This document shows, piece after piece, positions 31,146 to 56,148 of a stretch of 64,000 bases of DNA; position 1 is the first letter of the stretch, and each line of letters opens with the position of its first letter. A program made the translations under genes and the position numbers. The notes beneath the pieces were generated by a model. It saw nothing but the letters and a program-made list of their open reading frames with translations. It did not search any database and was not told the origin of the DNA. Source of the stretch: Konateibacter massiliensis (lineage in GTDB: Bacteria; Bacillota; Clostridia; Lachnospirales; Lachnospiraceae); the NCBI RefSeq assembly GCF_900184995.1, contig NZ_LT860097.1, positions 124,001 through 188,000 on the forward strand. The letters run 5' to 3'.

Positions 31146-31174
31146 TTGACAGATAAAAAAATAGAGATTATAAT
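31146..31174 (+). promoter_or_regulatory. Consensus sigma-A promoter of the nitrogenase-like operon
   Basis: TTGACA at 31146-31151, exactly 17 bp, TATAAT at 31169-31174: both hexamers are perfect consensus. The transcript would start near 31181, 51 nt before the leader peptide. No activator is therefore needed for initiation, which leaves leader attenuation as the natural control point. Confidence 0.88.
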
Positions 31175-31231
31175 CATTTCATACAAAACATACTAGAATA
31201 ATATGAATTAACAGAAAGGGGTGTAATACAT

Positions 31232-31336
31232 ATGAAAAACAGGAATAGTTATTCAGAAAACAAGTTAGGCTGTTGCTGTAACACTGTATACGAGGATAAA
31301 AATACGGTTTATTTTTGTATGTGTTACGCTGCCTAA
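31232..31336 (+). CDS. Cys-rich leader peptide, 34 aa
   Basis: A short ORF with AAAGGGG upstream encodes 34 residues with three consecutive cysteine codons (TGT TGC TGT at 31271-31279) and two more in 'FCMCYAA' at the end. It lies between a consensus promoter and a strong intrinsic terminator, the layout of amino-acid attenuators. Ribosome stalling at the Cys codons would cover 31278-31284 and free the downstream strand for an antiterminator. A role as a metal-binding or modified peptide cannot be excluded, but the RNA pairing argues for attenuation. Confidence 0.7.
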   Translation: MKNRNSYSENKLGCCCNTVYEDKNTVYFCMCYAA

Positions 31337-31385
31337 AGCTGAGTGCTGTGGGATAGCAGGTACCATACGGTGCCTGCTATTTTTG
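31278..31385 (+). promoter_or_regulatory. Predicted Cys-codon transcription attenuator
   Basis: Three mutually exclusive pairings can be drawn. 1:2 is GTAACAC (31278-31284) with GTGTTAC (31321-31327). 2:3 is TACgCTGC (31325-31332) with GCAGGTA (31356-31362), one bulge. 3:4 is ATAGCAGGTACC (31353-31364) with GGTGCCTGCTAT (31369-31380), 12 bp with one G-U, followed by TTTTT. Stalling at the three Cys codons overlaps strand 1, so low Cys-tRNA would favour 2:3 and read-through. Confidence 0.65.
31353..31385 (+). terminator. Attenuator terminator in the operon leader
   Basis: A 12-bp stem (one G-U pair), ATAC loop and T5 tail lie 16 bp after the leader peptide stop codon. Confidence 0.88.
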
Positions 31386-31421
31386 TAGCATAAGAAATTT
31401 TTGTAAACGGAAAAGGAAGGG

Positions 31422-31586
31422 GTGATTCCAATACCTAATTCAAATGTTCCAGATGCAGATAAGGAGTATGTTAAGTTAATTTATGAGATGGTTAAGAATA
31501 TGAAGTTTGGTTCTGTAACCATAGCAATCCAAGATGGAAAGATAGTGCAGATTGAAAAAATTGAAAAAATAAGATTAAAGAACTGA
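31422..31586 (+). CDS. DUF2292 (YezD-like) small protein, 54 aa
   Basis: The 54-aa product contains 'YEMVKNMKFGSVTIAIQDGK' and 'IVQIEKIEKIRLKN', the core of the YezD/DUF2292 family, whose members are 50-60 aa and often lie beside sulfur assimilation genes. The molecular role is unknown. GTG 31422 after AAGGAAGG is the most likely start. It is the first gene past the attenuator and precedes NifB by 85 bp. Confidence 0.72.
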   Translation: MIPIPNSNVPDADKEYVKLIYEMVKNMKFGSVTIAIQDGKIVQIEKIEKIRLKN

Positions 31587-31670
31587 CTGGACAACTGGAG
31601 GTTCTGATAGCAGGAAATGCGAATCAGACTTTGGTTGTCCTTTTTGTATTTTAGGAAAGAAGGTAAAGAA

Positions 31671-32543
31671 ATGCCGAACACATATCAAAACTTGCAGCAA
31701 TCGCACCCATGTTTTGGCGGACACAAAAATAATGTCGGGCGTATTCATCTTCCGGTCAGTCCGGGATGTAACATATCGTGTAAATTCTGCGACAGAAAAA
31801 TTAATGACACGGAAGAAAGACCGGGGGTAACCTCCAAGGTATTGTCCCCAACGGAAGCAATTGAGATACTTGGCAAAGCTCTTGCCCTATGTCCTGAGAT
31901 TACAGTCGCAGGCATTGCAGGACCAGGTGATACACTGGCAACTGATTACGCCTTGGATACCTTCCGCCTTGTAAAGGAGCATTATCCAAAACTCATCAAG
32001 TGCATGAGCACAAACGGTCTTCTTCTTGATGAGCGAGCCGAGGAAATTATTGAAATCGGAGTAGAATCCGTTACTGTCACGGTAAATGCGGTCGACCCTG
32101 AAATAGAGGCAAAGCTAAACAGAGGAATTGTATATCACGGCAAGGCATACAAAGGAGAGGAGGCGGCTGCAATCCTCATTGAAAACCAGCTAAAGGGAAT
32201 TCAAAAAATTGCAGAAACCGGCATTACAGTCAAGGTAAATACCGTGCTTGTTCCAAATATCAACGGCGATCACATTGAAGAGATTGCAAGGACTGTGAAG
32301 GCGGTGGGGGCAAGCATTTATAATCTGATACCTCTAATCCCTCAGTCCGATTTATCAGGGGAAAAAGCGCCTGTCTGTAACGAAATTGATGCGGCAAGAA
32401 CGCAGGCATCAAAGCACATTGACGTCTTTCGTCACTGTCAGCATTGCCGGGCAGATGCGGTGGGAATGCTTGGCGGAAAGGATTACGGCGACATGATATA
32501 CGAGAGACGAATCGCCAAAGCTGATACCTTTTCGCACGGCTAA
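31671..32543 (+). CDS. nifB: NifB-like radical SAM cofactor maturase
   Basis: A 290-aa radical SAM protein. The cluster-binding triad is C33, C37, C40 in 'SPGCNISCKFCDRK', with the NifB hallmark 'HPCF' at 12-15 and C-terminal 'FRHCQHCRADAVGML'. NifB fuses two [4Fe-4S] clusters and inserts a carbide to make the 8Fe core (NifB-co). It lacks the fused C-terminal NifX domain; a separate NifX-like gene follows. Its presence says the NifDK-like partner uses an FeS-carbide cofactor and is not a DPOR/COR- or CfbCD-type enzyme. ATG 31671 fits the family; the frame from 31617 has no support. Confidence 0.93.
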   Translation: MPNTYQNLQQSHPCFGGHKNNVGRIHLPVSPGCNISCKFCDRKINDTEERPGVTSKVLSPTEAIEILGKALALCPEITVAGIAGPGDTLATDYALDTFRLVKEHYPKLIKCMSTNGLLLDERAEEIIEIGVESVTVTVNAVDPEIEAKLNRGIVYHGKAYKGEEAAAILIENQLKGIQKIAETGITVKVNTVLVPNINGDHIEEIARTVKAVGASIYNLIPLIPQSDLSGEKAPVCNEIDAARTQASKHIDVFRHCQHCRADAVGMLGGKDYGDMIYERRIAKADTFSHG

Positions 32544-32563
32544 GACAGGAAGGAGGAGCAGAC

Positions 32564-32917
32564 ATGAGCTATAAAATAGCAATCGCTACAACGGACGGAA
32601 AGGTTGTAAACCAGCACTTTGGAAGGGCAAGTGTTTTCTATATTGTGAATGCCGACAGCGAGGGCAGGAAATATACCTATCTGGAAAGTAGGCAGGTGAC
32701 GCCGGTATGTCAGGGAAAGGAGCATGACGAGGGAAAACTAAGAGAGGCAGCAGGGTTGTTGAAAGATTGCAATTATGTGCTGGTGAGTCAAATCGGGGAA
32801 GGGGCTAGATATGCCTTAGAGCAGGAAAAAATTAAAGTGTTCGAGATACCGGGATTTATTGAGGATTCTATAAAAAAACTGCTTTCCTATGTAGAGGTTT
32901 CCAAGCTGTTGGAGTAA
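32564..32917 (+). CDS. NifX/NafY-like cofactor carrier, copy 1
   Basis: A 117-aa single 'Dinitrogenase iron-molybdenum cofactor' domain, starting MSYKIAIATTDGKVVNQHFG with the conserved His-Phe-Gly. Such proteins bind NifB-co or FeMo-co and pass it on. GGAGGAG precedes the ATG. Placed between NifB and NifH, it probably moves the 8Fe precursor from NifB to the NifDK-like complex, taking over work that NifEN would do in a true nitrogenase. Confidence 0.9.
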   Translation: MSYKIAIATTDGKVVNQHFGRASVFYIVNADSEGRKYTYLESRQVTPVCQGKEHDEGKLREAAGLLKDCNYVLVSQIGEGARYALEQEKIKVFEIPGFIEDSIKKLLSYVEVSKLLE

Positions 32918-32954
32918 AAGGAGCGAAAGGAAAAAGATGACCGAATCCCAATAA

Positions 32955-33845
<891 letters not shown>

Positions 33846-33860
33846 AAATGGAGGAGAGAC

Positions 33861-35324
33861 ATGGCAATTAATTTATCAAATTCTAATCTGGCAACGAGAG
33901 AGAACCGACTCGGTTCGATTACCGGATATGTTGGAGATTTACAGGACCTTGCAGGCCAGAGCAAGTGCGGAACCTTAAAGGGCTGCGGACGCTGTTTTTC
34001 ACAGTCAAGCACCTGTCTATCCGGCTGTGCACTGGGGCAGCTTGGAGGCATCAGAGATATCGCTGTAATTCATCACGGACCGTCCGGCTGTTCGGCGACG
34101 GCAAGCTCCCAGTATATTGTAACCAATCAGGTTGCAGCAAAACGTGGCGTTGTCAACAATTCCGTTTACATCGGAACAGATATGAATGAGAATGATACGA
34201 TATTTGGCTCAGCGGACGCCTTGGCAGATATTATTTTGGAGGTAAACAGACGTTATAAGCCAAAAGCTATATTTGTGAGCAGCTCTTGTGCATCGGGAAT
34301 AATTGGGGAGGATATCGACAGTGTGGTTGATGACGTGAAGGATGAGATTGAAGTACCGGTTATAGCAGTGCACTGTGAGGGATTTAAATCCCGTATTTGG
34401 GCGACCGGCTTTGATATTTCCGATCACGCAGTGTTAAGCGGTATTGTAAAACCGCCAAAGCAGAAACGAAATACAATTAATTTTAAAAACTTTTTTGAGA
34501 GTGCCAGAGAAGAGATTATTGATATTTTTAAAAACTTTGATCTTGACCCAATTTTTCTATATGCGAATGCCACAGTTGAAGAGCTAGAGAGATTATCCGA
34601 ATCCGTTGCGACGACGTGTATCTGCGGAACATTGGGAAATTACCTTGGAAACGGTTTGGAGGAAAAGTACAATGTGCCTTATATCAGAACGATTAATCCG
34701 CTTGGAATTGCAGGATTTGAAGCGTGGCTTCGAGAAATTGGAAAAGTGGCAAATAAGACGTTAGAGGTGGAAAACTATATAGAAGAGCAGCGGAAAATAT
34801 ATATTCCAAAAATCGAAGAGGTAAAAAAAGAGCTAAAAGGTTTAAAAGCCGTTCTGGGCATGGGACCGGGCTACACCTTTGAGGTTTCGAGAGTTTTAAA
34901 TGAGCTTGGTATTGAGGTGGTATGGGCACTTGCATGGCACTACGACAAAAAGTATGAAAATGGAGAGGTACCGCCTGCCATGAGCTATCTCTTGGAAAAT
35001 GACATTAATTTTGAGGCGAGTGTGGCAGACCAGCAAAACTATGAGGTTATGAATATTTTAAATAAATATCGCCCTGACCTTTATTTATCCAGACATCCCG
35101 GTTCCACCGTATGGGCAATTAAGCAGGGAACACCGGCAGTTTATGTGGCAGATGAATATATGATATTTGGCTATAAGCATACACTGGAATTTGCTCACGC
35201 CGTGCTTGACACGATACGAAACAGAAGCTTTGAGCAAAATCTGGCAAAGCGTGTGAAGCTCCCGTATACGGATTGGTGGTATAAGCAGGAGGTTGGAAAT
35301 TTCTTAGAGGAGGCAATTGGTTAA
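33861..35324 (+). CDS. NifD-like catalytic subunit (nitrogenase-like, MarD-like)
   Basis: A 487-aa subunit. P-cluster ligands C56, C77 ('HHGPSGC') and C143 ('SSSCASGIIGED') are kept, with the same 66-residue gap between the last two as in NifD. C255 in 'CICGTLGNYLG' aligns with the cofactor ligand C275. By eye, N2-reduction residues are changed: Q191 to W180, H195 to F184, and H442 to A430 in 'TPAVYVADEY'. It therefore probably carries an FeS cofactor but not canonical FeMo-co chemistry. The operon position and own NifB resemble methylthio-alkane reductase. Stop overlaps the next start. Confidence 0.9.
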   Translation: MAINLSNSNLATRENRLGSITGYVGDLQDLAGQSKCGTLKGCGRCFSQSSTCLSGCALGQLGGIRDIAVIHHGPSGCSATASSQYIVTNQVAAKRGVVNNSVYIGTDMNENDTIFGSADALADIILEVNRRYKPKAIFVSSSCASGIIGEDIDSVVDDVKDEIEVPVIAVHCEGFKSRIWATGFDISDHAVLSGIVKPPKQKRNTINFKNFFESAREEIIDIFKNFDLDPIFLYANATVEELERLSESVATTCICGTLGNYLGNGLEEKYNVPYIRTINPLGIAGFEAWLREIGKVANKTLEVENYIEEQRKIYIPKIEEVKKELKGLKAVLGMGPGYTFEVSRVLNELGIEVVWALAWHYDKKYENGEVPPAMSYLLENDINFEASVADQQNYEVMNILNKYRPDLYLSRHPGSTVWAIKQGTPAVYVADEYMIFGYKHTLEFAHAVLDTIRNRSFEQNLAKRVKLPYTDWWYKQEVGNFLEEAIG

Positions 35325-36622
35325 TGGCTAAAATATTAGATAAACAAAGATATAAGTGTGCGATGAGTGCCATGCAGACTGTTCAGGCGATTGAGAGGGC
35401 GATTCCGGTTCTTCACTCCGGTCCGGGCTGTGCACAAAAGCTGTCCAGTTCATCGGGAAGCTCAGGATATTTTTCGCCGAATATCTATCCGTGTACGAGC
35501 ATCAACGAGAAGGACGTTGTGTTCGGCGGTGTGCAGAAACTGCAATCGACAATTGAACATTCGCTGAATGTCATTGATGCAGATTTATATGTGGTTTTAA
35601 CGGGCTGTATTCCGGAAATTGTCGGAGATAATACAGAGGAGGTTGTGGAAGGATTTAAGGATGCGAAAAAGCCGGTTATCTATGCTTCCACAGCCGGGTT
35701 TAAAGGGAATAATTACAAGGGACATGAGCAGGTGGTGGAGTCTATTGTTGACAATCTACTGGAAAAATCAGATATACGGGTAAAGGGGCTCGTAAATATA
35801 TGGGCAGATGTACCTTATCAGGATGAATTTTGGCATGGCAATCTGAGAGAGCTTGAAAAGCTGGTTAGGGAGCTTGGCTTGACTCCGAATACGATATTTG
35901 GTTTCAAGAGAGGACTTGACAACATTAAAAAAATACCGACGGCTGATTTTAATCTTTTGATTTCTCCATGGGTAGGTTTACATAATATGAAGAAAATGGA
36001 GAAGAAATTAGGAATACCGTATCTTCATTATCCAACGCTTCCAATCGGTGCCTTTGAGACGAGCAAATTTTTAAGAGCAGTTGGGGAGTATGCCAAAGTG
36101 CCAAAGGAGAAGGTGGAAAAAATCATATCCGAAAAAGAGGAATATTACTATTACTACATTGAGCGATATGCAGATTTATTTTTGGAGACACGAGTTATGT
36201 CAAAGCAGTTTACGGTGGTGTCCGATGCCCAATATGCGCTTGGTATTACGAAATTTCTGGTAAATGACTTAGGGCTTTATCCGGCAAAGCAGTTCGTTGT
36301 CGATGATACGCCAAAGGAATTTCGTGACTCCATCAAAACATATTTCAAGGAGTTAAACTACGGGATTGAGGCTGATATCAGTTTTGAGACAGACGGATTC
36401 AAAATACACAGTGAAATCAAGGAACACGATTATCACGGCTATCCGCTTATCCTTGGAGGACATTGGGAAAAGCAGGTGGCAAAGGAAACTGACGCTCATT
36501 TTATCAACGTATCCTGGCCGGTAAATGAAAGATTGGTGATGAACAGCTATTATGTCGGCTACGACGGAGGGCTGAAGCTGATTGAGGATATCTATTCTGT
36601 GGCAAGGACGAGATTTAACTAA
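35324..36622 (+). CDS. NifK-like subunit (nitrogenase-like, MarK-like)
   Basis: A 432-aa partner of the NifD-like protein. The three P-cluster cysteines are C12 ('RYKCAMS'), C36 ('SGPGCAQ') and C95 ('LTGCIPEIVGDN'), spaced 24 and 59 residues (25 and 58 in NifK). It lacks the ~50-residue N-terminal extension of NifK. The start codon overlaps the upstream stop (TAATG), so translation is coupled. A full set of P-cluster ligands makes an electron-transfer P-cluster likely. Confidence 0.9.
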   Translation: MAKILDKQRYKCAMSAMQTVQAIERAIPVLHSGPGCAQKLSSSSGSSGYFSPNIYPCTSINEKDVVFGGVQKLQSTIEHSLNVIDADLYVVLTGCIPEIVGDNTEEVVEGFKDAKKPVIYASTAGFKGNNYKGHEQVVESIVDNLLEKSDIRVKGLVNIWADVPYQDEFWHGNLRELEKLVRELGLTPNTIFGFKRGLDNIKKIPTADFNLLISPWVGLHNMKKMEKKLGIPYLHYPTLPIGAFETSKFLRAVGEYAKVPKEKVEKIISEKEEYYYYYIERYADLFLETRVMSKQFTVVSDAQYALGITKFLVNDLGLYPAKQFVVDDTPKEFRDSIKTYFKELNYGIEADISFETDGFKIHSEIKEHDYHGYPLILGGHWEKQVAKETDAHFINVSWPVNERLVMNSYYVGYDGGLKLIEDIYSVARTRFN

Positions 36623-36663
36623 GAAAGTTTAAATGAGAAAATATCAAAGCAAGGAGGTGAACC

Positions 36664-37095
36664 ATGTCATATAAGATTGCAATAGCTTCCTCTGACCAAA
36701 TTAATATTAATTTGCATTTTGGAGGTGCGCAGGAATTTTTGATTTATGAGGTAGGGGAGAGTGGAACATATAGCCTTTTGGAAATTAGGGGAGAAGCAGA
36801 GGGCACTGCGGAAAGCTGTCAGGAAGTCTGTAACAACGGCTGTGAGAGTGGCGAGAAAAAGGGTGGCTGCGGCAAGAGCTCACAGTCCGATAATCCGAAG
36901 GTCCTTCTTATTGCAGACTGTCGCTGCGTTATTTGTAAAAAGGTAGGCTTCCATATTCAAAAGCAACTGGAAAAACGAGCAATAACAACCTTTGATGTGG
37001 AGGGAAGCATTGAGGAGGCATTGCAAAAAGTTACCTTTTATTTTAATCGTGTGGACCGTCACCAGACACTGAGAGGAATTGCCAACCAAGTTTGA
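36664..37095 (+). CDS. NifX-like protein, copy 2, with Cys-rich insert
   Basis: A 143-aa NifX-domain protein that starts almost like copy 1 (MSYKIAIAS) and has the His-Phe-Gly at 'NLHFGGAQ'. It carries an insert at about 53-75 with 'CQEVCNNGCESGEKKGGCG' and a later 'ADCRCVICKKVG'. These eight cysteines could bind a cluster or protect a cofactor precursor. AAGGAGGTGA is a perfect ribosome binding site. Probably a dedicated insertase or carrier for the NifDK-like enzyme. Confidence 0.85.
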   Translation: MSYKIAIASSDQININLHFGGAQEFLIYEVGESGTYSLLEIRGEAEGTAESCQEVCNNGCESGEKKGGCGKSSQSDNPKVLLIADCRCVICKKVGFHIQKQLEKRAITTFDVEGSIEEALQKVTFYFNRVDRHQTLRGIANQV

Positions 37096-37108
37096 GAGGA
37101 GATTTGAT

Positions 37109-38239
37109 ATGATACAAATAAAAACACCAGAAATATATGTAAGTGAACCAAATGCAATCAAGTCACTTGGCTTATTTGTTAAAAAATATGGAAAGAGAGC
37201 ATTGATTGTCTGGTCCACGACAGCCAAGAAGGTGACTGAGGATGCAATTATAGAAAGCTTGGGTATTCAGAAGATTTTTTATCAGGAGTATCTGTTTAGC
37301 GGTTATCCGACGCTTGAAACCGCCTATGATATTGCGAGAGAAGCAAAAGAGAGTGAAATAGAAATCATCATTGCAGTCGGAGGAGGAAGAGTGCTGGACA
37401 CCTCAAAGGCAGCAGGGGATATCGCCAAGATACCTGTCGCTTCCGTTCCAACGATTGCCGCGACCTGTGCCGCATGGGCAGCTCTTTCGGTCATCTATAC
37501 CGCGGAAGGAAACTTTGACCATTTCAGACATAATGAGCATTCACCGCAAGTGGTCGTAGCCGATACCGTGATTCTTGCAGGAGCACCGGAGAGATATTTA
37601 AAGGCGGGAATTGTGGATACACTTGCCAAATGGTATGAAACCTCAGTCGGTTACGAGGCTTTAAAAAGCGATTTTTCCTATATCAATTCTGTAAACGGAG
37701 CACTTCTGGCATATGATTTTCTGGAAGAACATGCAGCGGCTGTCGTTGACAATGCAAGAAGAAATATCATCGATGATAATACGGTGAAAACCATCGATAC
37801 CATTATCTTTCTGGCGGGGAATGTAGGAAGCTATGTGGGGGAAAAGGCATATTCAGGATTTGCACATCCATTTTATCATTCCTCTCGCATTGTACCGGAG
37901 ACAAGAGATACCCTGCACGGTGAAATTGTTGCTTTTGGCTTGCTTGTACAGGCGGTGCTGGAGAAAAAGAGTGAGGAAGAGCTCTACTCGATTATCGAGA
38001 AGTTTAGTGAGCTTGATGTGGCATTTACTTTGGAGGAAATCGGAATAGCAGAGAAGGCAGAGGAAAAGCTTCAAACTATCGAAGAGCGGATTTATAATGC
38101 ATTTCCGGGACTTATCCTATTGGAGAACAATAGGGGAGATGGGACAATTATCAATGCGGCATACAAGGCAGATGAGTATGTAAAAAGATTTCGAAGGGAG
38201 CAAAATTATGGCGACAGTGAAGGAAAGAGAAGGGCTTAA
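37109..38239 (+). CDS. Iron-containing alcohol dehydrogenase, GldA-like
   Basis: A 376-aa group III-type dehydrogenase of the glycerol-dehydrogenase branch. NAD site 'IIIAVGGGRVLDTSKAAGD', metal ligands Asp in 'AGIVDTLAKWYE' and His in 'SGFAHPFYHS' and 'DTLHGEIVAFG'. It may oxidise or reduce a small hydroxy compound; in this setting a hydroxyl-bearing organosulfur compound is a fair guess. ATG 37109 follows GAGGAG. The next gene overlaps its 3' end by 32 bp, so they are tightly coupled. Confidence 0.87.
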   Translation: MIQIKTPEIYVSEPNAIKSLGLFVKKYGKRALIVWSTTAKKVTEDAIIESLGIQKIFYQEYLFSGYPTLETAYDIAREAKESEIEIIIAVGGGRVLDTSKAAGDIAKIPVASVPTIAATCAAWAALSVIYTAEGNFDHFRHNEHSPQVVVADTVILAGAPERYLKAGIVDTLAKWYETSVGYEALKSDFSYINSVNGALLAYDFLEEHAAAVVDNARRNIIDDNTVKTIDTIIFLAGNVGSYVGEKAYSGFAHPFYHSSRIVPETRDTLHGEIVAFGLLVQAVLEKKSEEELYSIIEKFSELDVAFTLEEIGIAEKAEEKLQTIEERIYNAFPGLILLENNRGDGTIINAAYKADEYVKRFRREQNYGDSEGKRRA

Positions 38240-39305
38240 CGAAATCGCCCCGTATCAGGCAGCCAAGTCTTTGGAGGCATTAAAACGAGAGTTGAACCTC
38301 ACAGAAATTATAAAATTGGCGGGAAACGAAAACCGGATAGGCTGCTCTGTGAAGGTGCTGGACGCAATTTTAGCGGAGGAGAAGGAATTTTCCTTTTATC
38401 CGGACACCAATTGCACGCTTTTGAAGGAAAAATTAGGTTCCTTACATAAGGTAGACCCATCTAACCTGATAATTGGAAACGGCTCTTTTGAACTGATTGC
38501 TCTTTTGGCTCATGCTTATTTAGGAGAAGACGAGGAGGCAATCATACCCGAGCCTTCCTTTGGCTGGTATAAAAATGTGACGTTGCAGATGAATGCAAAG
38601 CCTGTTTTAGTTCCTCTAGAAGACTTTGCCATTGACACAAATGCCGTATTAAAGGCGATTACACCAAAGACAAAACTGATTTGGATTTGCAATCCGAATA
38701 ATCCGACCGGAACGGTATTGAAGGAAGAAGAGCTTAGAGCGTTTATCCGTCAGGTTCCGGATCATATACTGATAGCTGTCGATGAGGCTTATATCGATTT
38801 TGTTGAGGAGGAGTATTTTGATACCGTATCTCTAATTCGACAGCATAAAAATGTAATTCTTCTTCGAACCTTTTCAAAGCTTTATGGGCTTGCCTCCTTT
38901 CGGGTTGGCTATGGTATCGCAGAGGAGACGATAATCGAAAATCTGAACAAAATAAGAAGTCCGATTAATGTAAGCCTTACGGCGCAAAAGGCAGCCGCAG
39001 CGAGTTTGGAGGATGAAGCATTTGCAAAGCTTGTGCTAAACAATAACAAAAAGAGTCTGGAGCTGTATTATAAGGAGCTGAATGCTTTGAAGCTAAAGTT
39101 TGTCAGGTCAAATGGAAACTTTATATTGATTGAGACAAAGATAGACGGAAAAGTAGTGGAAGATATTTTTCTGCAAAACCAAATCCTGATTCGTAATGCC
39201 GCAGAATTTGGCCTGGATGGCTGGATAAGAGTATCCATCGGAACATTTGAGGAAAACAAAAGAGTAATCAGGGTGCTAAAGGAGATTGTTAACAAAAATA
39301 AATAA
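38208..39305 (+). CDS. HisC-like PLP aminotransferase
   Basis: A 365-aa class I/II aminotransferase close to histidinol-phosphate aminotransferases. The PLP lysine is in 'LLRTFSKLYGLASFRVGYG', Asp/Tyr in 'IAVDEAYIDF', and Asn in 'IWICNPNNPTGTVL'. Without other his genes around, it is more likely to act on another amino or keto acid, for example a keto acid made from the scavenged sulfur compound. The start lies inside the dehydrogenase gene. Confidence 0.88.
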   Translation: MATVKEREGLNEIAPYQAAKSLEALKRELNLTEIIKLAGNENRIGCSVKVLDAILAEEKEFSFYPDTNCTLLKEKLGSLHKVDPSNLIIGNGSFELIALLAHAYLGEDEEAIIPEPSFGWYKNVTLQMNAKPVLVPLEDFAIDTNAVLKAITPKTKLIWICNPNNPTGTVLKEEELRAFIRQVPDHILIAVDEAYIDFVEEEYFDTVSLIRQHKNVILLRTFSKLYGLASFRVGYGIAEETIIENLNKIRSPINVSLTAQKAAAASLEDEAFAKLVLNNNKKSLELYYKELNALKLKFVRSNGNFILIETKIDGKVVEDIFLQNQILIRNAAEFGLDGWIRVSIGTFEENKRVIRVLKEIVNKNK

Positions 39306-39326
39306 AAAGAGGAGTTGTATCAAATT

Positions 39327-40439
39327 ATGAAAAAATTATGGAAAAAAGTTGTAGCGAGCTTGGTAATAGGAGTACTTACGGTAGGTGCCGCAGGCTGCGC
39401 AAAAGGAGAGACCGCATCGTCAGGAAGTACGGAGGTTGTGACAGAAGATAATGTTTTGTCAGAGCAGGTAGACAGCACAAAAGAAGAGAATAACACGGAT
39501 GCTACAACAGAGGCAAATGAAACAATTCATCTGCGCTTTGGGGCAACGGGCTGGAAGCTCTATGAGTCGCTGCTGCAGGCGGCAGGGCTTGATGACTTTG
39601 AAGGATATGAGGTGGAATACTTTGTATTTCAGGGAGGAAATCTTTGCCTGGAGGCACTTGCAGCCGATCAGATTGATTTTACAACAACGAGTGAAATTCC
39701 TCCGATTGCGGCATCTAAGTCAGCAGGAGGGGGTAATTTTAAAATAGTTTTAATCGGAAGCAGCAGTCCGCAAAATCAGGAGGTTGTGGCGCTTGAGACC
39801 TCAGGTATTAAGACGATTGCAGATTTAAAAGGAAAAAAGGTTGGATATATCAAGAATACAACCGCTCATTATTTCTTAAATGAAATGCTTAAAAAAGAGG
39901 GGCTTTCATGGAACGATATTGAACCAGTTGAAATTACAACCGCCGACGGTGTGACTGCATTAATCGGAGGAGAGATTGCTGCGTTTGCAAGCTATGGCAA
40001 TTCCATCAATGCGGCAAAAGCAAATGGAGCGATAACGATTGAAACAGCGGTTAACATTTTATCCGGAAACTTCCCGCTTGAAATATCGGAAACGGCATTG
40101 CAGGATGAGGCAAAAACGGAGGCAATCGCTGATTATTTTGCAAGGGTTCAAAAGGCATATGAATGGGCAGGAAATAATCTGGAGGAATGGGCAAAAATTC
40201 AGGCAGAACCGACCGGTAATACCGAGGAGGAGTCGCTTGATTTGTTACAGAGAACCTATAATGACAGGGGATACTACTATAATCTGATCGGAATTGATGA
40301 CAATGTAATTGCCTCCGAACAAAGTGTTGCAGATGCGCTCTATGAGCTGAAGGTATTAGATGACAAGACAGATGTTTCTACCTTCTATGACACTTCCTTC
40401 TATGAAAAATATCAAAAGGCACTTGAAAACCTGAACTAG
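39327..40439 (+). CDS. SsuA/TauA-like binding lipoprotein
   Basis: A 370-aa NMT1/THI5-fold substrate-binding protein. The lipobox is 'VGAAGC' near residue 23, followed by a Ser/Thr/Glu-rich linker. The mature domain shows 'HLRFGATGWKLYESLLQAAG', 'LAADQIDFTTTSEIPPI' and 'IADLKGKKVGYIKNTTAHYF', all typical of sulfonate/taurine-type proteins. ATG 39327 is preferred over TTG 39315, which is only 1-2 nt after the ribosome binding site. It supplies substrate to the permease and ATPase that follow. Confidence 0.88.
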   Translation: MKKLWKKVVASLVIGVLTVGAAGCAKGETASSGSTEVVTEDNVLSEQVDSTKEENNTDATTEANETIHLRFGATGWKLYESLLQAAGLDDFEGYEVEYFVFQGGNLCLEALAADQIDFTTTSEIPPIAASKSAGGGNFKIVLIGSSSPQNQEVVALETSGIKTIADLKGKKVGYIKNTTAHYFLNEMLKKEGLSWNDIEPVEITTADGVTALIGGEIAAFASYGNSINAAKANGAITIETAVNILSGNFPLEISETALQDEAKTEAIADYFARVQKAYEWAGNNLEEWAKIQAEPTGNTEEESLDLLQRTYNDRGYYYNLIGIDDNVIASEQSVADALYELKVLDDKTDVSTFYDTSFYEKYQKALENLN

Positions 40440-40452
40440 AAGGGAGGAAAAA

Positions 40453-41220
40453 ATGGCTTGGAAAAAGACTGAGAAATTAATGAAGTGGTTTCTTCCATGG
40501 CTGGTGCCGATGTTGATACTGCTTGTATGGTATTACACGACTCTTCCGGGAAAGAACAATACCCTCTTTCCGTCACCGGATAAGGTTATCAGCAGGACAA
40601 TCGAAATGACGAAGAGCGGGCAGCTCTGGCAATATATTTCAATCAGTGCTCTTCGCGCCGGAAAAGGGTTGCTGCTTGGCGGCTTCATAGGTCTTGTGCT
40701 CGCCTTTTTTACTGGCTTGAATAAAAATCTTGATTTGACCTTTAACACAACAATACAAATGCTTCGCACAATACCGGTGCTTGCGGCAATCTCGCTTATG
40801 ATTATCTGGTTTGGAATCGGGGAACAGGTTAAGGTTTATATCGTTGCTTTTGGGGTGTTTTTTCCAATCTACATCAACACTTATCATGGAATCAAAACGG
40901 TGGATAGGGGACTTTTGGAGATGGGAAGAGTATACGGATTGAGCAGATTTAAAATCTTTTGGGAAATTATTTTGCCTGGTGCTCTGCCCTCTATCCTAGT
41001 TGGAGTAAAGCTGTCGCTTGGCACGATGTGGCTTTTACTCATTGCCTCGGAGCAGATTGCGACAGATGCAGGAATCGGCTATATGGCGATGTCAGCCAGA
41101 GAGCTTCTACAGATGGATAAAATTGTTCTGGCAATCCTCTTGTATGCTATATTGGGGAAGCTTTCAGATGTGATTGCGACCTTTTTGGAACGGGTATTAA
41201 TCCGATGGAGGGAGGCATAA
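40453..41220 (+). CDS. SsuC-like ABC permease
   Basis: A 255-aa BPD_transp_1 membrane protein with about six helices. The cytoplasmic EAA motif is in 'EMGRVYGLSRFKIFWEIILPGALPSILVG'-type sequence (described, key residues G and P kept). Closest to permeases for sulfonates, taurine or nitrate. GGGAGG lies 7 nt before the ATG. Part of the operon. Confidence 0.9.
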   Translation: MAWKKTEKLMKWFLPWLVPMLILLVWYYTTLPGKNNTLFPSPDKVISRTIEMTKSGQLWQYISISALRAGKGLLLGGFIGLVLAFFTGLNKNLDLTFNTTIQMLRTIPVLAAISLMIIWFGIGEQVKVYIVAFGVFFPIYINTYHGIKTVDRGLLEMGRVYGLSRFKIFWEIILPGALPSILVGVKLSLGTMWLLLIASEQIATDAGIGYMAMSARELLQMDKIVLAILLYAILGKLSDVIATFLERVLIRWREA

Positions 41221-41223
41221 AAG

Positions 41224-41976
41224 ATGGAAAATGAACAGAATGGATATGAGATACAAATAGAAAATCTTGAAAAAAAATTTGGCAGCCTAAATGTTTTGGA
41301 GGAACTGAATTTAAATATTCAGGCAGGCGAATTTGTGGCAATCGTAGGAAAGAGCGGCTGCGGAAAAAGCACGCTGCTTCGGTTGATTGAAGGCTTGGAT
41401 ACACCTACTGTGGGGCAGATAAGTGTAAATGGGGTTAAAAAATCAGGGGTAGACAGCAATATCCGCTTTGTTTTTCAGGAGCCGCGCCTTCTTCCATGGA
41501 AAAAGGTATATCAAAATGTGCGCCTTGGTGCCATCAATCATGATGAGAGCATTGCGCTGCAGGCATTAGAAAGTGTGGGACTATATGAAAAGAGGAATGT
41601 TTATCCGCATCTGCTGAGTGGAGGGCAGAGGCAGAGAGTTTCTCTTGCAAGGGCATTGGCGGGCAGACCGAAGGTTCTTTTGCTCGATGAGCCTCTTGGG
41701 GCGCTGGATGCGCTCACAAGGCTAGATATGCAGGAATTGATTGAAAATCTCTGGAAGGAGCTTGGATTTACCGCTATTATTGTCACGCATGATGTGAGTG
41801 AGGCGGTAAAGTTGGCTGACCGGGTTATTGTGATTGAGGAGAACAAGGTCAAACTGGATATTAAAATCCAGCTTCCAAGACCAAGAATAACAGGAAATGA
41901 CAGCAGCTATTATGAAAAGATTATTTTATCACATATTATGAAGCAGCAGGAGGCAGCAAAGGATTATACAATCTAA
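41224..41976 (+). CDS. SsuB-like ABC ATPase
   Basis: A 250-aa ATPase with Walker A 'VGKSGCGKSTLLRLI', signature 'LLSGGQRQRVSLARAL' and Walker B 'VLLLDEPLGALDALTR', the D-loop wording usual in SsuB/TauB/NrtD. It energises the SsuABC-like importer. The gap to the permease gene is 3 bp. The cargo is presumed to be a sulfonate or similar organosulfur compound by context only. Confidence 0.92.
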   Translation: MENEQNGYEIQIENLEKKFGSLNVLEELNLNIQAGEFVAIVGKSGCGKSTLLRLIEGLDTPTVGQISVNGVKKSGVDSNIRFVFQEPRLLPWKKVYQNVRLGAINHDESIALQALESVGLYEKRNVYPHLLSGGQRQRVSLARALAGRPKVLLLDEPLGALDALTRLDMQELIENLWKELGFTAIIVTHDVSEAVKLADRVIVIEENKVKLDIKIQLPRPRITGNDSSYYEKIILSHIMKQQEAAKDYTI

Positions 41977-42012
41977 TCTGTGATAGGAGACAAATAAGAA
42001 AGAAGGAATTTT

Positions 42013-42837
42013 ATGAAAAAAATAGGAAAACAGCTTATAGCAGCAGTACTAATTACAGCATTGGCGGCGACTTTCACAGGTTGTGGAAGAAAAGAGGCAC
42101 TTGCGAATGCGGATGTGGAGAAGATAATTGTAGGAACCGGAAATGCCTACGAGCCTTACTGCTATTTGGATGACAGCGGAAATTTGGCAGGCTATGAATA
42201 TGAGGTGCTAAAGGTAGTGGATGAACTGCTTCCTCAGTATGAGTTTGAATTTCAAACTTCCGATTTTGCCAATGTACTTATCTCGTTAGATGCGGGAAAA
42301 ATCGATATTGCGGCTCATCAATATGAATATAATGAGGAGCGCGATGAAAAATATCTGTTTGGAGAAGAGGCATATACTACTTATGTAACCTATCTTGTGG
42401 TAGCGGGAGATAGGACGGATATTACCTCCCTTGATGATTTGCAAGGGTTGAAGGTAAAAAGCTCATCCGGCTCAAATGCAAGCTATATTCTTGAAAATTA
42501 TAATCAGGAGCATGCCGACAATCCGATTCAGATTGACTATGTAAATAACTCGACCGATGAGGAGACGGTAACCGGAATTTTAAACGGTGTCTGGGACGCA
42601 ACCATCGCGACAAAGCGAGATGTAGAGAAGTTAAACAAAGGATACGGGGACGGAGCAGATGTTTTAAAGACAGTCGGCGAGGCGGTGCAGTCCTCCTCTA
42701 CCTATTTTCTGTTCGACAAAGAAAACACGACACTGAAAGAAGCTGTTGACGGTGCAGTGAAGGAGCTTAGAGAAAACGGCAGACTTGCAGAAATTTCAAC
42801 ACAGGTAATCGGCGGAGATTATACGGAAAGTGAGTAG
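42013..42837 (+). CDS. Polar amino-acid (cystine-like) binding lipoprotein
   Basis: A 274-aa family 3 binding protein. Lipobox 'AATFTGC' near residue 24; mature start 'EKIIVGTGNAYEPYCYLDDSGNLAGYEYEVLK' type with the ligand-binding Tyr and Asp, then 'SLDDLQGLKVKSSSGSNASY'. It resembles TcyJ/TcyK-type cystine or S-methyl-cysteine binding proteins, though amino-acid specificity cannot be fixed by eye. It is followed by two permeases and an ATPase. Confidence 0.88.
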   Translation: MKKIGKQLIAAVLITALAATFTGCGRKEALANADVEKIIVGTGNAYEPYCYLDDSGNLAGYEYEVLKVVDELLPQYEFEFQTSDFANVLISLDAGKIDIAAHQYEYNEERDEKYLFGEEAYTTYVTYLVVAGDRTDITSLDDLQGLKVKSSSGSNASYILENYNQEHADNPIQIDYVNNSTDEETVTGILNGVWDATIATKRDVEKLNKGYGDGADVLKTVGEAVQSSSTYFLFDKENTTLKEAVDGAVKELRENGRLAEISTQVIGGDYTESE

Positions 42838-42842
42838 ACGGT

Positions 42843-43553
42843 ATGGATAGACTGTTTGACTGGGGAAGATTTTTAGATAACATCCCCAAAATCGCTCCGT
42901 ATTTATCCATAACACTGTCCATTGTAGTATTTGGCACGCTGTTTGGAGTTATTCTGGGAATTGGCATTGTGCTAATCAACATGAAAAAGCTTCCCGTGCT
43001 GTATCCGATTTCCAAGGTGTACGTCTCTTTTATGAGAGGTACACCAATGCTGGTACAGCTTATGATTGTTTATTATGGCATTCCGGCATGGATTGATCCG
43101 ATTTTTGGGACGAATATCAACCGGGAGTGGAGTGCAGTCACATTTGCTTATATCACATTTATTTTAAATCAGGGAGCCTTTCTCTCCGCTATTTTTTATG
43201 GTGCGATTACAGCAGTTCCATATGGACAGACAGAAGCGGGATTAAGCGTTGGTCTTACCGGATTTCAGACTTTTCGTCGGATAGTTGTGCCGCAGATGAT
43301 AAGAACAGCTCTGCCTCCTTTTGGTTCAGATTTGGTTGGTCTGTTTCAGAATTCCTCACTTGTATTTTTGGTTGGTGTCACAGATATTATGGGGAGGGCA
43401 AAGACAATCGGGAGTGCCACAAAGCATGTATTGGAAGCCTATGTGTTTGTTGTTATCGTGTATATCAGCATCAGTCTGCTGATCAGACTTAGCTTTTACT
43501 GGCTGAATAAGAAGCTTTCCTATGGAAGAGGAGGTGTGGCGGGTGAATTTTAA
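42843..43553 (+). CDS. Polar amino-acid ABC permease, first subunit
   Basis: A 236-aa HisM-family permease with 'YVSFMRGTPMLVQLMIVYYG', the N-terminal hallmark, and EAA loop 'GLSVGLTGFQTFRRIVVPQMIR'. The gap to the binding protein is 5 bp. The ribosome binding site is weak, so coupling is likely. It forms a heterodimer with the next permease. Confidence 0.9.
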   Translation: MDRLFDWGRFLDNIPKIAPYLSITLSIVVFGTLFGVILGIGIVLINMKKLPVLYPISKVYVSFMRGTPMLVQLMIVYYGIPAWIDPIFGTNINREWSAVTFAYITFILNQGAFLSAIFYGAITAVPYGQTEAGLSVGLTGFQTFRRIVVPQMIRTALPPFGSDLVGLFQNSSLVFLVGVTDIMGRAKTIGSATKHVLEAYVFVVIVYISISLLIRLSFYWLNKKLSYGRGGVAGEF

Positions 43554-44253
43554 TATCGCTCATTTCAATGAGAGCCTTATCTATGGAATAAAATATCTGC
43601 CAAATACCTTGAAGCTGGTTTTCATTCCGCTGGTTATGGGGCTTATTTTGGGAACTGCAGTGGCGCTCGTCAGAGCTTATAAGGTGCCGGTTTTTGCTAA
43701 GCTTTTAGCAGGGGTGGTGACCATTTATCAAGGAGTTCCCATTGTAGTAGCCCTTATGATATATAATCTGCTCTTTATGCTGAAATTCAATGATTTGGCA
43801 AAGCTGCTGCATATACAGTCAAGTGTTGCGGATGTGGATAATATATGGGTCGGCATTTTTGCACTGACGCTTATGGCAGTCTGTTCCATGTCGGAGGCAA
43901 TCAGAGGAGCTCTTTTATCAATCGACCATGGGCAGAATGAGGCAGGCTATTCGGTGGGACTTACCAAGGTGCAAACGATACGGCGCATTATTATCCCGCA
44001 AATGATTCCTGTTGTGATTCCTACTTTGATTAACAATGTGGTTGGCTTGATAAAGGCTTCTTCGGTCGTAATGGCAATCGGAATTACGGAGCTTGTTGCC
44101 GGAGCGACCATTCCAAGTTCCAGAACCTATTCCTTCTATGAAGGCTATGTGGCAGCGGCAGTCCTATATTGGGGACTTACGATTATAATTGAAAATCTGG
44201 CAGGTATATTGAGAAAGCATACAGGAAAATTTAGGGGGAATGCATATGATTGA
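43543..44253 (+). CDS. Polar amino-acid ABC permease, second subunit
   Basis: A 236-aa HisM-family permease with '[17 protein letters not shown]' and EAA loop '[22 protein letters not shown]'. The GTG at 43543 lies 9 nt after GAGGAGG and is preferred over ATG 43522, which precedes that site. It overlaps the first permease by 11 bp and the ATPase by 8 bp. Confidence 0.88.
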
Positions 44254-45001
44254 GGTGAAAAATGTAAAAAAGGCGTTTGGAAAGCTGCAGGTCTTAAAGG
44301 ATGTCTCGGTGAAGGTGGAGGACGGTGAGGTAGTCGTTATTCTCGGACCGAGCGGCTCCGGAAAGACAACGCTTCTTCGCTGCATCAACTTTCTTGAAAA
44401 TGCGGATAGCGGCAGCCTCACAATCGGAGATACCTCGGTAAACTTTAAAAAGGCATCCAAGCAGCAGATTTTAGATATAAGGAGAAAAACAGCATTTGTT
44501 TTTCAAAATTACAATCTCTTTGCCAATAAAACGGCACTTGAAAATGTGATGGAAGGGCTTGTAACGGCAAGGAGGATTCCAAAGGAAACCGCAAGAGAGA
44601 AGGCGAAAGAAGCACTTGACTGGGTTGGTCTGTCTGATAAATACGACCATTACCCTTGCCAGCTTTCAGGTGGGCAGCAGCAGCGAGTTGGCATTGCAAG
44701 AGCGTTTGTACTGAATCCTGAGGTGATTTTGTTTGATGAGCCGACATCTGCACTTGACCCGGAATTAGTCGGTGAGACGCTTGATATTATCAAAAGAGTG
44801 GCGGGAAAGGGCATCACGATGATTGTCGTGACACATGAGATGTCGTTTGCACAGGACGTGGCAGACAAAGTGATTTTTATGGATGAGGGCTATGTCGTAG
44901 AGGAGGGGAAACCGGAAGAAATTTTTTCCAGACCAAAGGAGGAGAGAACGAAGCAATTTTTATCGAGAATTATCTCGATTGAGCCTAGTTATGTCATATA
45001 G
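44246..45001 (+). CDS. Polar amino-acid ABC ATPase
   Basis: A 251-aa GlnQ/TcyN-type ATPase: Walker A '[19 protein letters not shown]', signature '[16 protein letters not shown]', Walker B '[14 protein letters not shown]', and '[20 protein letters not shown]' with the switch His. ATG 44246 lies 7 nt after AGGGGG; ATG 44240 is too close. It is the last gene of the long operon, closed by the terminator at 45055. Confidence 0.92.
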
Positions 45002-45148: not shown

Positions 45149-45688
45149 CTACATCAACGCCTCATACAATTTATCCATCGGTCTCGGAATAACAACGCTG
45201 TGAATCATCAACTCACTGACAGACTCGGCAGCCTTCAATGCCTCTGTCACGGCACTGACATCGCCGCTCATTGTTACAAATCCCTTGCCGCCGACTGCAA
45301 AGCCGGTACGGATTTCAATCAGGTTGATGGCTGCTGCTTTTGCTGCGGCATCGGCGGCTAAAATTGCGGAGGCAACGGAATAAAATTCGATGACCCCGAC
45401 TGCTCCTTCGGTAGGAACCTGTGAGGTGCCGCTGAGTGCAGGCATAAGCTGGTCGCTTATGTTGGCAATTAATAATTTATCTACAAGAAATTGTGCGGCA
45501 GTTTCCTCGCCGACCTTCATGGCTGCATCGACGCTTCCCGTGTCACCGCCGATAATAACCATATATTTTCCAGGACAGATAGTGGAAGAACGAAGAAGTT
45601 CAACGTCTGCCGCCTTTATCATGGAATCACATGTTTCAATACCCTTTGCTATGCTGGATAGCTCTATCATACCAACTGAATTTGCCAT
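45149..45688 (-). CDS. pduT: PduT-like microcompartment shell protein
   Basis: A 179-aa tandem BMC-domain protein. BMC domains cover about 4-85 and 95-172. 'SSTICPGKYMVIIGGDTGSV' carries C38, the residue that in PduT holds a [4Fe-4S] cluster at the trimer pore. It ends 'VIPRPMDKLYEALM' as PduT does. It would conduct electrons across a shell together with PduS. The gene follows pduS by 14 bp. No other shell protein is seen in the window, so any compartment must use genes elsewhere. GGAGG precedes the start. Confidence 0.92.
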   Translation of the reverse strand: MANSVGMIELSSIAKGIETCDSMIKAADVELLRSSTICPGKYMVIIGGDTGSVDAAMKVGEETAAQFLVDKLLIANISDQLMPALSGTSQVPTEGAVGVIEFYSVASAILAADAAAKAAAINLIEIRTGFAVGGKGFVTMSGDVSAVTEALKAAESVSELMIHSVVIPRPMDKLYEALM

Positions 45689-45702
45689 TTTTTATTCCTC
45701 CA

Positions 45703-47052
45703 TTAGTTAAGACTTATTCTGATGCCGGCAGGTGTCACACTGCTTACCGTACCGTTTACGCTTGCATGTATATTTGCGGATAGTCCCGTTTCATCGGCAC
45801 TTCCGATTAGTTCACCCTCGTATACTTTGTCGCCGGCTGCCTTTGTCGCAACAGCAGGTTTGCCGATATGCTGCGCAAGAGGAATAAATACTTCTTTTGG
45901 AGTTAAGCTAAGACAGACATGCGCATGCAGGCCGTTATATTTTCCCAGATTTAATCTGGCGATTAAACGGTCGGTCGGAACCTTGCTGACCTCAACAGAA
46001 GACCTTGCTACCGGATTCATGTTTTTTTCTACCATGATACCTTTTTCACGGAACTTGCCCTTCATGTACTGGTTTACTCTTCGAGGAGATAAGCTCATCG
46101 GACAGGAAAACAGTTCACAAAGTCCGCAGTCACAGCAATTTACTGCATCTCCGTAGCATTTTTCAAATTCCTCGTCGGAGGTGATGGTGCTTTCTCTCCA
46201 GACATTTCTCATAACAAGATGCGGCTTAATCCGGTGTCCAATCTGAAATCTTGGACATAGGTCCGTACACATGCGGCACTGGATACAGGCACTTCTTGTC
46301 TGGTGCTTAATTCGATCAATTGTCACCTTTGTACGTTCAATTAAGTAATGGTCCTTTGGCAAAACAATGATATTACCGGTTGTCTTTGTCACATATTGCT
46401 CATCGATTAGAGCATTATCAGAGACAACACGTCCCATCATCGGACCGCCGAGAATAATAGCATAATCAGAAATGACAGGGTTTGCTGCCTGAATACATTC
46501 CCGTATCGGTGTTCCAATCGGAACCTCGAGCATAATCGGTTCTTTTACTTCACCCACGACAGAGAGATATTTGTTTGTCACTTTTTTCTGACGCTCCACA
46601 GCCTCGTAAATATTGATGACGGTTCCGACATTATCAACAACAGCGCCGACCTCAATCGGGATACCACGTTCCGGAATACTTTTTCCGGTTACCTGCTGAA
46701 CGATAATCTGCTCATCACCTGCCGGATAGAAGGTTCTCATCTCAAAAATTTCGATGTCGGCATTATTTTTTTCAATGGCATCTTTGAGTGCAGCTATCTC
46801 AGCTTTATATTTTCCTTTTAAAGCAATGACAGATTTTTTTGCCTCCAAATGCTTTGAAACATACAAAATACCCTTGACGAGTTCATCCGCAAAGGTTCTG
46901 CACAAAAATTTATCTGTTTCGATCAAAGGCTCACATTCAGCGGCGTTTACAATGAAATATTCTGCCTTTGTATTCAGCTTAATATGTGTAGGGAATCCGG
47001 CACCACCTGCGCCGACAATACCTGCATCCTTAATTATCTCAATCAAATTCAT
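45703..47052 (-). CDS. pduS: PduS-like RnfC-family electron-transfer flavoprotein
   Basis: A 449-aa protein. N-terminal 'GIVGAGGAGFPTHIKL' binds FMN as in RnfC/PduS, and two [4Fe-4S] motifs are 'CIQCRMCTDLCPRF' and 'CCDCGLCELFSCPMSL'. PduS reduces cobalamin in propanediol compartments and probably passes electrons through PduT. The start MNLIEIIKDAG at 47052 follows GGAGA; the longer frame to 47241 lacks support. Its lone pairing with pduT, away from diol dehydratase, suggests a general electron conduit. Confidence 0.92.
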   Translation of the reverse strand: MNLIEIIKDAGIVGAGGAGFPTHIKLNTKAEYFIVNAAECEPLIETDKFLCRTFADELVKGILYVSKHLEAKKSVIALKGKYKAEIAALKDAIEKNNADIEIFEMRTFYPAGDEQIIVQQVTGKSIPERGIPIEVGAVVDNVGTVINIYEAVERQKKVTNKYLSVVGEVKEPIMLEVPIGTPIRECIQAANPVISDYAIILGGPMMGRVVSDNALIDEQYVTKTTGNIIVLPKDHYLIERTKVTIDRIKHQTRSACIQCRMCTDLCPRFQIGHRIKPHLVMRNVWRESTITSDEEFEKCYGDAVNCCDCGLCELFSCPMSLSPRRVNQYMKGKFREKGIMVEKNMNPVARSSVEVSKVPTDRLIARLNLGKYNGLHAHVCLSLTPKEVFIPLAQHIGKPAVATKAAGDKVYEGELIGSADETGLSANIHASVNGTVSSVTPAGIRISLN

Positions 47053-47161
47053 AGTGATCTCCATTTCTCCTGTGCTATTTTCTTTGAAAATACAACTAAA
47101 ACCAAATGAAACAATGAAAAACTTACAAGAAAAGATGTTGCTTCTTCTGTTATTTAAGTAT

Positions 47162-47190
47162 ACGTTATCGTAAAATGAGCCATTTGTCAA
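47162..47190 (-). promoter_or_regulatory. Possible promoter of pduS-pduT
   Basis: On the minus strand TTGACA (47190-47185) is perfect, with a 17-bp spacer and a weak TAACGT -10 (47167-47162). Confidence 0.45.
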
Positions 47191-47327
47191 GACTTTCACA
47201 CATTTTATTAGTAGAAAAAACATTGCCTTTCTAAAAAACATATGATAGCATTATTATAGGAAATAAAAAGAAAATTCTTACCTATTTAATATAGAAAGTT
47301 TACGAATTTACGCGTAGGAGGAAACAA

Positions 47328-48102: not shown

Positions 48103-48146
48103 ATACAAGTCGACCAAATCGAAAAAAAGAAGGGTTGGTATTTATT

Positions 48147-50503: not shown

Positions 50504-50525
50504 GTTTGACAGGAGGATGTAAGAG

Positions 50526-51764: not shown

Positions 51765-51779
51765 GAGTAGGAGGCAGTC

Positions 51780-52553: not shown

Positions 52554-52579
52554 AACAGTGAAGGGAATGGAGCTTCATT

Positions 52580-54166: not shown

Positions 54167-54178
54167 GGAGGAAAAAGC

Positions 54179-55318: not shown

Positions 55319-55346
55319 GGGAAGAAGGAAGAGAGGAAATAACGAG

Positions 55347-56132: not shown

Positions 56133-56148
56133 AAAGAAGGGTAGAAGG

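Follow-up and report, generated by a model that had tools for sequence, protein, structure and literature searches.

The stretch analysed, referred to as the window, comprises 64,000 nt of the 4.26 Mb genome of Konateibacter massiliensis (contig C5:124001-188000; positions given without a contig or locus label are those of the window). On its + strand a tightly packed, co-directional series of genes (31146-45001) extends from a promoter to a cystine-type importer (Table 1), and these genes would be transcribed together. An earlier note on this DNA had described NifB, NifX, NifH, NifD-like, NifK-like and second NifX-like genes as one operon and had proposed a Firmicute relative of methylthio-alkane reductase (MAR) with a role in sulfur scavenging. 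The operon was confirmed, with all six genes in place and matching the respective profiles. Its catalytic subunits, D and K, are MAR-like, and by phylogeny D belongs to a distinct clade of the MAR superclade and not to MAR proper.

Table 1. Features of the nitrogenase-like operon and the importer genes that follow it
Feature	Position	Strand	Evidence
Promoter TTGACA-17-TATAAT	31146..31174	+	12/12 sigma-70 consensus
Leader peptide of 34 aa with 5 Cys, codon runs for CCC and CMC; candidate Cys attenuator	31232..31336	+	
Terminator-like hairpin with T-run	31345..31389	+	-27.8 kcal/mol, 19 pairs
DUF2292/OscA-like small protein, 54 aa	31422..31586	+	PF10055 2.4e-17
NifB-like radical SAM protein (cluster maker), without NifX domain	open reading frame (ORF) 31617, ATG 31671..32543	+	
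NifX-like cluster carrier 1	32564..32917	+	PF02579 (Nitro_FeMo-Co) 5.2e-20
NifH-like reductase	ORF 32964, ATG 32997..33845	+	Fer4_NifH PF00142 1.6e-127
MarD-like catalytic subunit (NifD-like)	33861..35324	+	Oxidored_nitro 2.6e-71
MarK-like catalytic subunit (NifK-like)	35324..36622	+	Oxidored_nitro 2.1e-66
NifX-like protein 2, Cys-rich insert	36664..37095	+	PF02579 1.4e-13
GldA-like iron-type alcohol dehydrogenase	37079..38239, likely start 37109	+	NF006941 5.8e-65, below cut-off
HisC-like pyridoxal phosphate aminotransferase	38208..39305	+	TIGR01141 2.5e-93, over cut-off
SsuA-, SsuC- and SsuB-like importer	39315..41976	+	TIGR01728 155.5 bits, cut-off 163.5
Cystine-type amino-acid ABC importer: binding protein, two permease-like genes, ATPase	42013..45001	+	

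The solved proteins closest to D and K were, by wide gaps, the D and K subunits of Rhodospirillum rubrum MAR (for K, 2e-107 with 9d9u_C vs 1.4e-22 with nitrogenase), and the predicted fold of D was likewise closest to MAR D. All six cysteine ligands of the P-cluster are kept (C52, C77 and C143 in D; C12, C36 and C95 in K), and C255 and R411-H412 of D are the equivalents of MAR Cys270 and Arg428-His429. The Arg-His pair, located in Loop I, has been suggested as a hallmark of MAR, which according to PMC12552129 stands alone among the nitrogenase-like enzymes described in having the large P- and Fe8S9C clusters. True nitrogenase, CfbCD and the dark-operative protochlorophyllide and chlorophyllide oxidoreductases were ruled out by profiles, residues and trees: D scored 57.7 of 268.4 with CfbD and 58.3 of 324 with BchN, K scored 100.1 of 490.35 with BchB, and the NifH-like protein scored 386 of 402 with CfbC, whereas it exceeded the cut-off of the nifH model (TIGR01287, 457.1 bits, cut-off 394.35). 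The classification as MAR-like, as opposed to nitrogenase, CfbCD or chlorophyll type, is supported.

Relatives were gathered in a scan from which the best 80 of 544 named loci were kept with flanks of up to 10 kb (loci are labelled L and genomes G below). In a tree of 73 D sequences, which includes long branches (host NifD, NifE and the D of L150 among them) and in which the nitrogenase references are the host NifD and NifE only, named by gene order, the window D fell inside a clade here called clade A. This clade grouped with a distant second Treponema D (L093:13856-15322) and a small SsuABC-linked group, and the grouping was sister (98/94) to 14 rows (99/98) that comprise R. rubrum MarD with Firmicute relatives and two further clades. 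The 38 rows of the MAR superclade formed one group (99/99) that left host NifD and NifE outside. A quick K tree also placed the window K apart from MarK. A topology that unites clade A with MarD was rejected (log-likelihood -25, approximately unbiased test p 0.0058, 35 rows), the tested group having been named after the first D tree was seen and L150 and the L137-L139 group having been left out of the tree. A clade-A D and a MAR-type D co-occur at one locus of Propionispira arboris (L084) and in one genome (G278).

Within clade A, the Arg-His pair was conserved in 81/81 sequences, at a site where host NifD has an alignment gap, and Trp195, Phe199 and His375 of MAR were conserved as well; the equivalents of NifD Gln191/His195 are Trp/Phe. 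The position of MAR His194 is Ile in all 81 sequences, that of Cys73 is Gly (49), Ser (26) or Ala (four) in 79 of the 81, with two others, and position 70 (MAR numbering) is Cys in 80. MAR-clade sequences have His194 in 4/4 and Cys73 in 3/4 cases, the MAR-clade D from L084 ending before the Arg-His site. A separate clade, an altered pocket and co-occurrence with MAR together suggest, as far as can be judged from sequence, that the substrate differs from that of MAR, a difference for which the initial proposal had allowed. What stands of that proposal is membership of the family, upheld by profiles, structures, residues and trees; identity with MAR is not supported.

Other D types were observed alongside. 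A second D of another clade was present in 24 of 79 clade-A stretches (e.g. L142:8605-11398, L124:7195-9965 and L140:6388-9122); most of these genes, which may encode a second enzyme or a scaffold, fall into one group of 27 rows that lacks the Arg-His loop and has Cys for Trp195 in 24. In the small SsuABC-linked group (D of L137, L138 and L139), Arg428 is kept and the cluster ligand His429 is Ala in 3/3. A 375 kb plasmid of Ca. Chlorohelix allophototropha (L048) carries two nifH-D-K-type sets, one of them in clade B, and an O-acetylhomoserine (OAH) sulfhydrylase.

The gene-neighbour survey showed sulfur genes around the clade-A D, which was found in 79 of 83 stretches (the window included), some stretches being contig ends; the names of gene clusters rest on one or two members put to the test, on the L047 annotation or on inspection by eye (IscS, IscU, MetQ). 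K followed D in 75/79 stretches, and the gene directly upstream of D was CysK-like in 55 of 78 and NifH in 13 of 78. The CysK family occurred anywhere in 64/79 clade-A stretches, a cystathionine-synthase/lyase-type gene in 31, a PatB C-S lyase in 25, LysR in 22, a Rrf2/CymR-like gene in 18, a SsuA-type binding protein (cluster c13) and an IscS-like gene in 12 each and a serine-acetyltransferase-like gene in six; a MetQ-like cluster was present in 7/83 stretches. The window represents a minority type, without CysK and with GldA, HisC, SsuA and SsuC, that recurs in L051, L059 and L126. Three Butyrivibrio loci have a carbon-monoxide dehydrogenase gene after a SsuABC-like importer near the clade-A D (L110:18405-20504, L113:18943-21054 and L114:16077-18176), that of L110, the only one tested, being over the TIGR01702 cut-off; use of carbonyl sulfide at these loci is a guess.

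The nearest named relatives of D are those of Lacrimispora celerecrescens and Clostridium sp. Marseille-P2415 (92 % each, own-genome records possibly being excluded). By record title, carriers of clade A include Lachnospiraceae, Clostridium, Selenomonadales, Treponema and Bacteroidales, many from ruminant guts. The loci of the scan were mostly from Clostridia, with eight from Bacteroidales/Paludibacteraceae and seven from Treponema/Spirochaetes at 76-80 % D identity and others from Propionispira and Megamonas. This distribution points to horizontal spread, with the proviso that some loci are metagenome-assembled genomes in which binning errors are possible. In Treponema saccharophilum, the clade-A set lies on a plasmid beside OAH-sulfhydrylase, cysK and importer genes.

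At the genome level, 189 of the 352 genomes that lack a MAR-like D have NIR_SIR domains, whose profile also covers nitrite reductases, as against 6 of 26 clade-A genomes (Fisher p 0.0037, kinship ignored) and 3 of 19 genomes with another MAR-like D; comparing all 45 genomes with a MAR-like D against the 352, also irrespective of kinship, gave p 2.4e-5. For the counts, the lists of genomes with clade A and with NIR_SIR were copied out manually; partial D matches (74 % over 1-190, 88 % over 376-484) put G151 and G221 into clade A, and a weak match (1.9e-6) made G151 NIR_SIR-positive. Serine acetyltransferase and methylthioadenosine salvage were searched for in 24 of the 26 genomes. Serine acetyltransferase gave a match at 1.1e-43 or better in 23 of the 24, over the curated cut-off in 10, and, judged by gene content, most carriers seem equipped to convert sulfide to cysteine, without a NIR_SIR enzyme for sulfite. 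Few NIR_SIR domains and common serine acetyltransferase speak against sulfite as the product in clade A and for sulfide or a thiol. The mtnK and mtnA products feed MAR in R. rubrum. Over curated cut-offs, mtnK was found in one clade-A genome and mtnA in two, a further mtnA match falling narrowly short; the only genome with both was G278, where MAR-clade D genes are present too, and neither gene gave a match when searched for in the host. Salvage of the R. rubrum type was ruled out as the feed by this rarity in carriers and the lack of a host match.

The proteins that would supply the cluster and electrons were compared in the same way. The NifB-like protein (Radical_SAM 2.2e-21) has intact HPC, CxxxCxxC, E-x-RP and CxxCRxDAxxG motifs and scored below the cut-off of the nifB model TIGR01290 (1.7e-82; 277.5 of 343.65 bits), which includes the NifX domain that this protein lacks. 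The P-loop and both cluster-cysteine motifs are present in NifH. The reported absence of nifE and nifN holds for the operon, D and K being the only Oxidored_nitro genes on the contig, but not for the host, which has four further such genes with a nifH on C6 and two on C7. Because C6 carries a nif cluster (C6:228991-236521; H, D, K, E and a NifN-NifB-type fusion with an 889 aa open frame; locus L149; named by gene order and motifs), nifEN is missing from the operon and not from the cell. The C7 genes belong to a third nitrogenase-like HDK set (C7:544863-547839; L150:8861-12029) beside a FecCD-like importer, and its D is about 19 % identical to the window D by BLAST.

Regulation was examined from the promoter onwards. 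The region contains 33 promoter-like sites vs 28.0 in shuffled sequences, and the 31146 site alone has a 12/12 match; the same TTGACA-17-TATAAT was seen by eye before the leader in Lacrimispora celerecrescens (L049). The 221-nt leader stretch has a folding z-score of -6.4. Its hairpin was not listed by a simple terminator scan, and the leader peptide had no NCBIfam or Pfam match. The DUF2292 gene, reported correctly upstream of NifB, reaches 6.3e-9 and 35.7 of 85 bits with the OscA model NF033785. A Cys-rich small ORF was present in 8 of 57 NifB-upstream regions examined and no Cys-rich leader was seen in the other 49; a hairpin accompanies it in seven (the window, L049, L050, L051, L118, L086 and L098) and not in L107. 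CCC leaders followed by a hairpin lie upstream of NifB in L049, L050, L051 and L118, and a DUF2292-like sequence is also found in L049, L050 and L118. One extra Cys-rich ORF in the window without a hairpin was taken as chance. The operon may be controlled by Cys-tRNA attenuation: when charged Cys-tRNA is short, ribosomes would stall at the leader Cys codons and transcription would pass the hairpin into the long operon. When parts of the leader were omitted in antiterminator modelling, the predicted probability of the terminator pair was 0.67-0.97 whichever 5′ part was removed.

The operon probably encodes a carbon-sulfur reductase that is assimilatory and ATP-driven and that forms a separate clade within the MAR superclade, and the sulfur-scavenging role proposed for it is supported by the operon context. 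The importers would bring in an organosulfur compound; NifB would build an [Fe8S9C] cluster, the NifX-like proteins would carry it and, without a NifEN step, it would go directly into DK, where an Fe8S9C cluster would be held by Cys255 and His412. NifH would pass electrons via the P-cluster to this active-site cluster, which would cleave the C-S bond of the substrate, and the reduced sulfur (a thiol or, likelier in clade A, sulfide) would enter O-acetylserine-dependent cysteine synthesis. Sulfide as the product is a reasoned but tentative bet. It is conceivable, if on the doubtful side, that clade A is a nitrogenase-type desulfurase, a branch of the L-cluster enzymes that reduces an imported sulfur compound fully to sulfide and passes it to the cysteine synthase whose gene adjoins in most relatives, possible substrates being a thiol or a sulfonate such as coenzyme M, or even cluster-bound sulfite.

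Several points count against a carbon-sulfur reductase of this kind. Its activity is a prediction from sequence, fold and context, and the D model has pLDDT (predicted local distance difference test) values <50 at 34-52 and 174-180, which span Cys52 and Ile179-Trp180. The argument for sulfide or a thiol is drawn from relatives because the operon of the window has no CysK-like gene, one having been looked for there and not found, and because the host, an exception among carriers, has NIR_SIR genes itself; the NIR_SIR association is also one that disregards kinship. The CysK-like protein between H and D scored just under the cysteine-synthase cut-offs in the two members tested (332.5 and 325.5 of 344.15), CysK motifs occur, depending on the motif, in 34 to 60 of the 67 long proteins of its cluster, and some of these genes may act otherwise or be mis-called ORFs. 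SsuABC is equally compatible with sulfonate import. Modelling gave no clear antiterminator, and of the Cys-codon attenuator proposed earlier it is the leader, the hairpin and the folding score that stand.

As a special case of carbon-sulfur reduction, the enzyme might act as MAR does and release methanethiol from thioethers (dimethyl sulfide, 2-methylthioethanol) for methionine synthesis. This would fit the conserved Arg-His hallmark, Trp195, Phe199, His375 and the ligands of both clusters, the cystathionine-synthase/O-acetylhomoserine-sulfhydrylase-type genes of 31/79 stretches and the MetA gene in the window. It is nevertheless rather unlikely given the position outside the MarD clade and its two sister groups, the replacement of His194 and Cys73, the genomes with both types (L084 and G278) and the scarcity of mtnK and mtnA. 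An alternative nitrogenase that borrows NifEN from the other nif locus of the host would account for the kept P-cluster and cluster-Cys ligands and could draw on the NifEN-type genes present; the Trp/Phe at Gln191/His195, an Arg-His pair where host NifD has a gap, the place of D outside NifD and NifE and the sulfur genes that surround D in relatives render it highly improbable.

A third possibility, absent from the earlier note, is an isethionate/sulfonate reductase like IsrBHDK of Rhodobacter capsulatus, which, according to the part of the report available, works with SsuCAB to release sulfite from isethionate (Morimoto et al. 2024, PMC11423573). Sulfite would here come from a sulfonate imported by SsuABC, with the GldA- and HisC-like enzymes feeding the reductase from an amino-sulfonate. 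The two systems share a nitrogenase-like enzyme, a radical SAM gene, a SsuABC importer and sulfur assimilation, the GldA/HisC/SsuA/SsuC neighbours recur in three other loci, and the host NIR_SIR genes could use sulfite. The GldA-like protein scored 29.8 of 700 on the sulfoacetaldehyde reductase model when taurine-to-isethionate feeding via HisC/GldA was considered. As described in the same partial source, IsrD keeps one of three P-cluster cysteines and has no equivalent of the cluster cysteine Cys275, and IsrB does not resemble NifB; the window differs in all three respects, and a NIR_SIR match is missing from 20 of 26 clade-A genomes. Identity with Isr was ruled out on ligands and NifB type, by comparison with that published description and with IsrD not in the trees, and a similar function is quite unlikely.

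Compared with R. rubrum MarBHDK (PDB 9fmg, 9d9u; PMC12552129), the window shares the B, H, D and K genes with no EN beside them, a NifB-type B, the six P-cluster cysteines and the equivalents of Cys270, Arg428-His429, Trp195, Phe199 and His375. It differs in its separate NifX proteins and Cys leader, and clade A differs in its phylogenetic position, in Ile at His194, Gly/Ser/Ala at Cys73 and Cys at 70, and, among relatives, in the CysK-like neighbour and rare mtnK/mtnA. In one genome of the termite spirochete Pillotina, group-IV nifD/nifK lie beside a cysteine synthase and a sulfur role was suggested, in the portion of the text available (PMC13067680); likened by this description only, they possibly belong to clade A. 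MarHDK-like genes of group IV-A, which lie close to type I mlp clusters, have sulfur genes in common with the window, as far as the available excerpt describes them (PMC10418091), and are set apart in that description by a link to corrinoid methyltransferase clusters. Two sulfoquinovose papers, in the sections available (PMC11659671, PMC12330013), merely cite or screen for Isr. The open-licence literature searched yielded no description of clade A, its residue signature, its regular CysK linkage or its presence together with MAR, which is no proof of absence.

Clade A is a widespread branch next to MAR that apparently still awaits characterisation. As a second widespread clade with MAR's cluster ligands and an altered pocket, it would provide, beside MAR, a natural comparison of how protein surroundings steer cluster chemistry. 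For anaerobes that lack sulfite reductase it would also be a sulfur source open to testing, and through it bacteria may release methane, ethylene or sulfide in the gut. Were sulfide released, the enzyme would stand in for sulfite reductase in numerous anaerobes of gut and rumen and would be the first of the nitrogenase relatives to pass its product directly into cysteine.

Among the remaining genes, the SsuABC-like and cystine-like importers reported downstream gave best or near-best matches to the expected profiles, below their cut-offs: the SsuC and SsuB profiles were the best for their genes, and the cystine-type importer matched NF008426 (2.9e-25) and NF008428 (2.3e-97), its permease-like genes being assigned by eye and clustering. 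The solved chains nearest to the GldA-like protein are glycerol dehydrogenases, and a second HisC-type protein over cut-off is encoded elsewhere in the host (C7:1430761). The acetyl-CoA-type MetA reported in the window was found 14 kb upstream of the operon (NF047918, 494.1 bits, cut-off 460.5). On the - strand of the downstream flank (45149-47241) are genes for a microcompartment shell protein resembling PduT (143 bits with TIGR02526, below cut-off) and, by eye, a PduS/RnfC-like protein. Further on, 19 kb downstream of the clade-A D, an acryloyl-CoA-reductase-like gene lies with electron-transfer flavoprotein genes (48135-57330) and adjoins 2-hydroxyacyl-CoA-dehydratase-like genes; the same reductase/flavoprotein pairing occurs about 5 kb downstream of D in L076 (16525-19485) and L115 (16414-19354).

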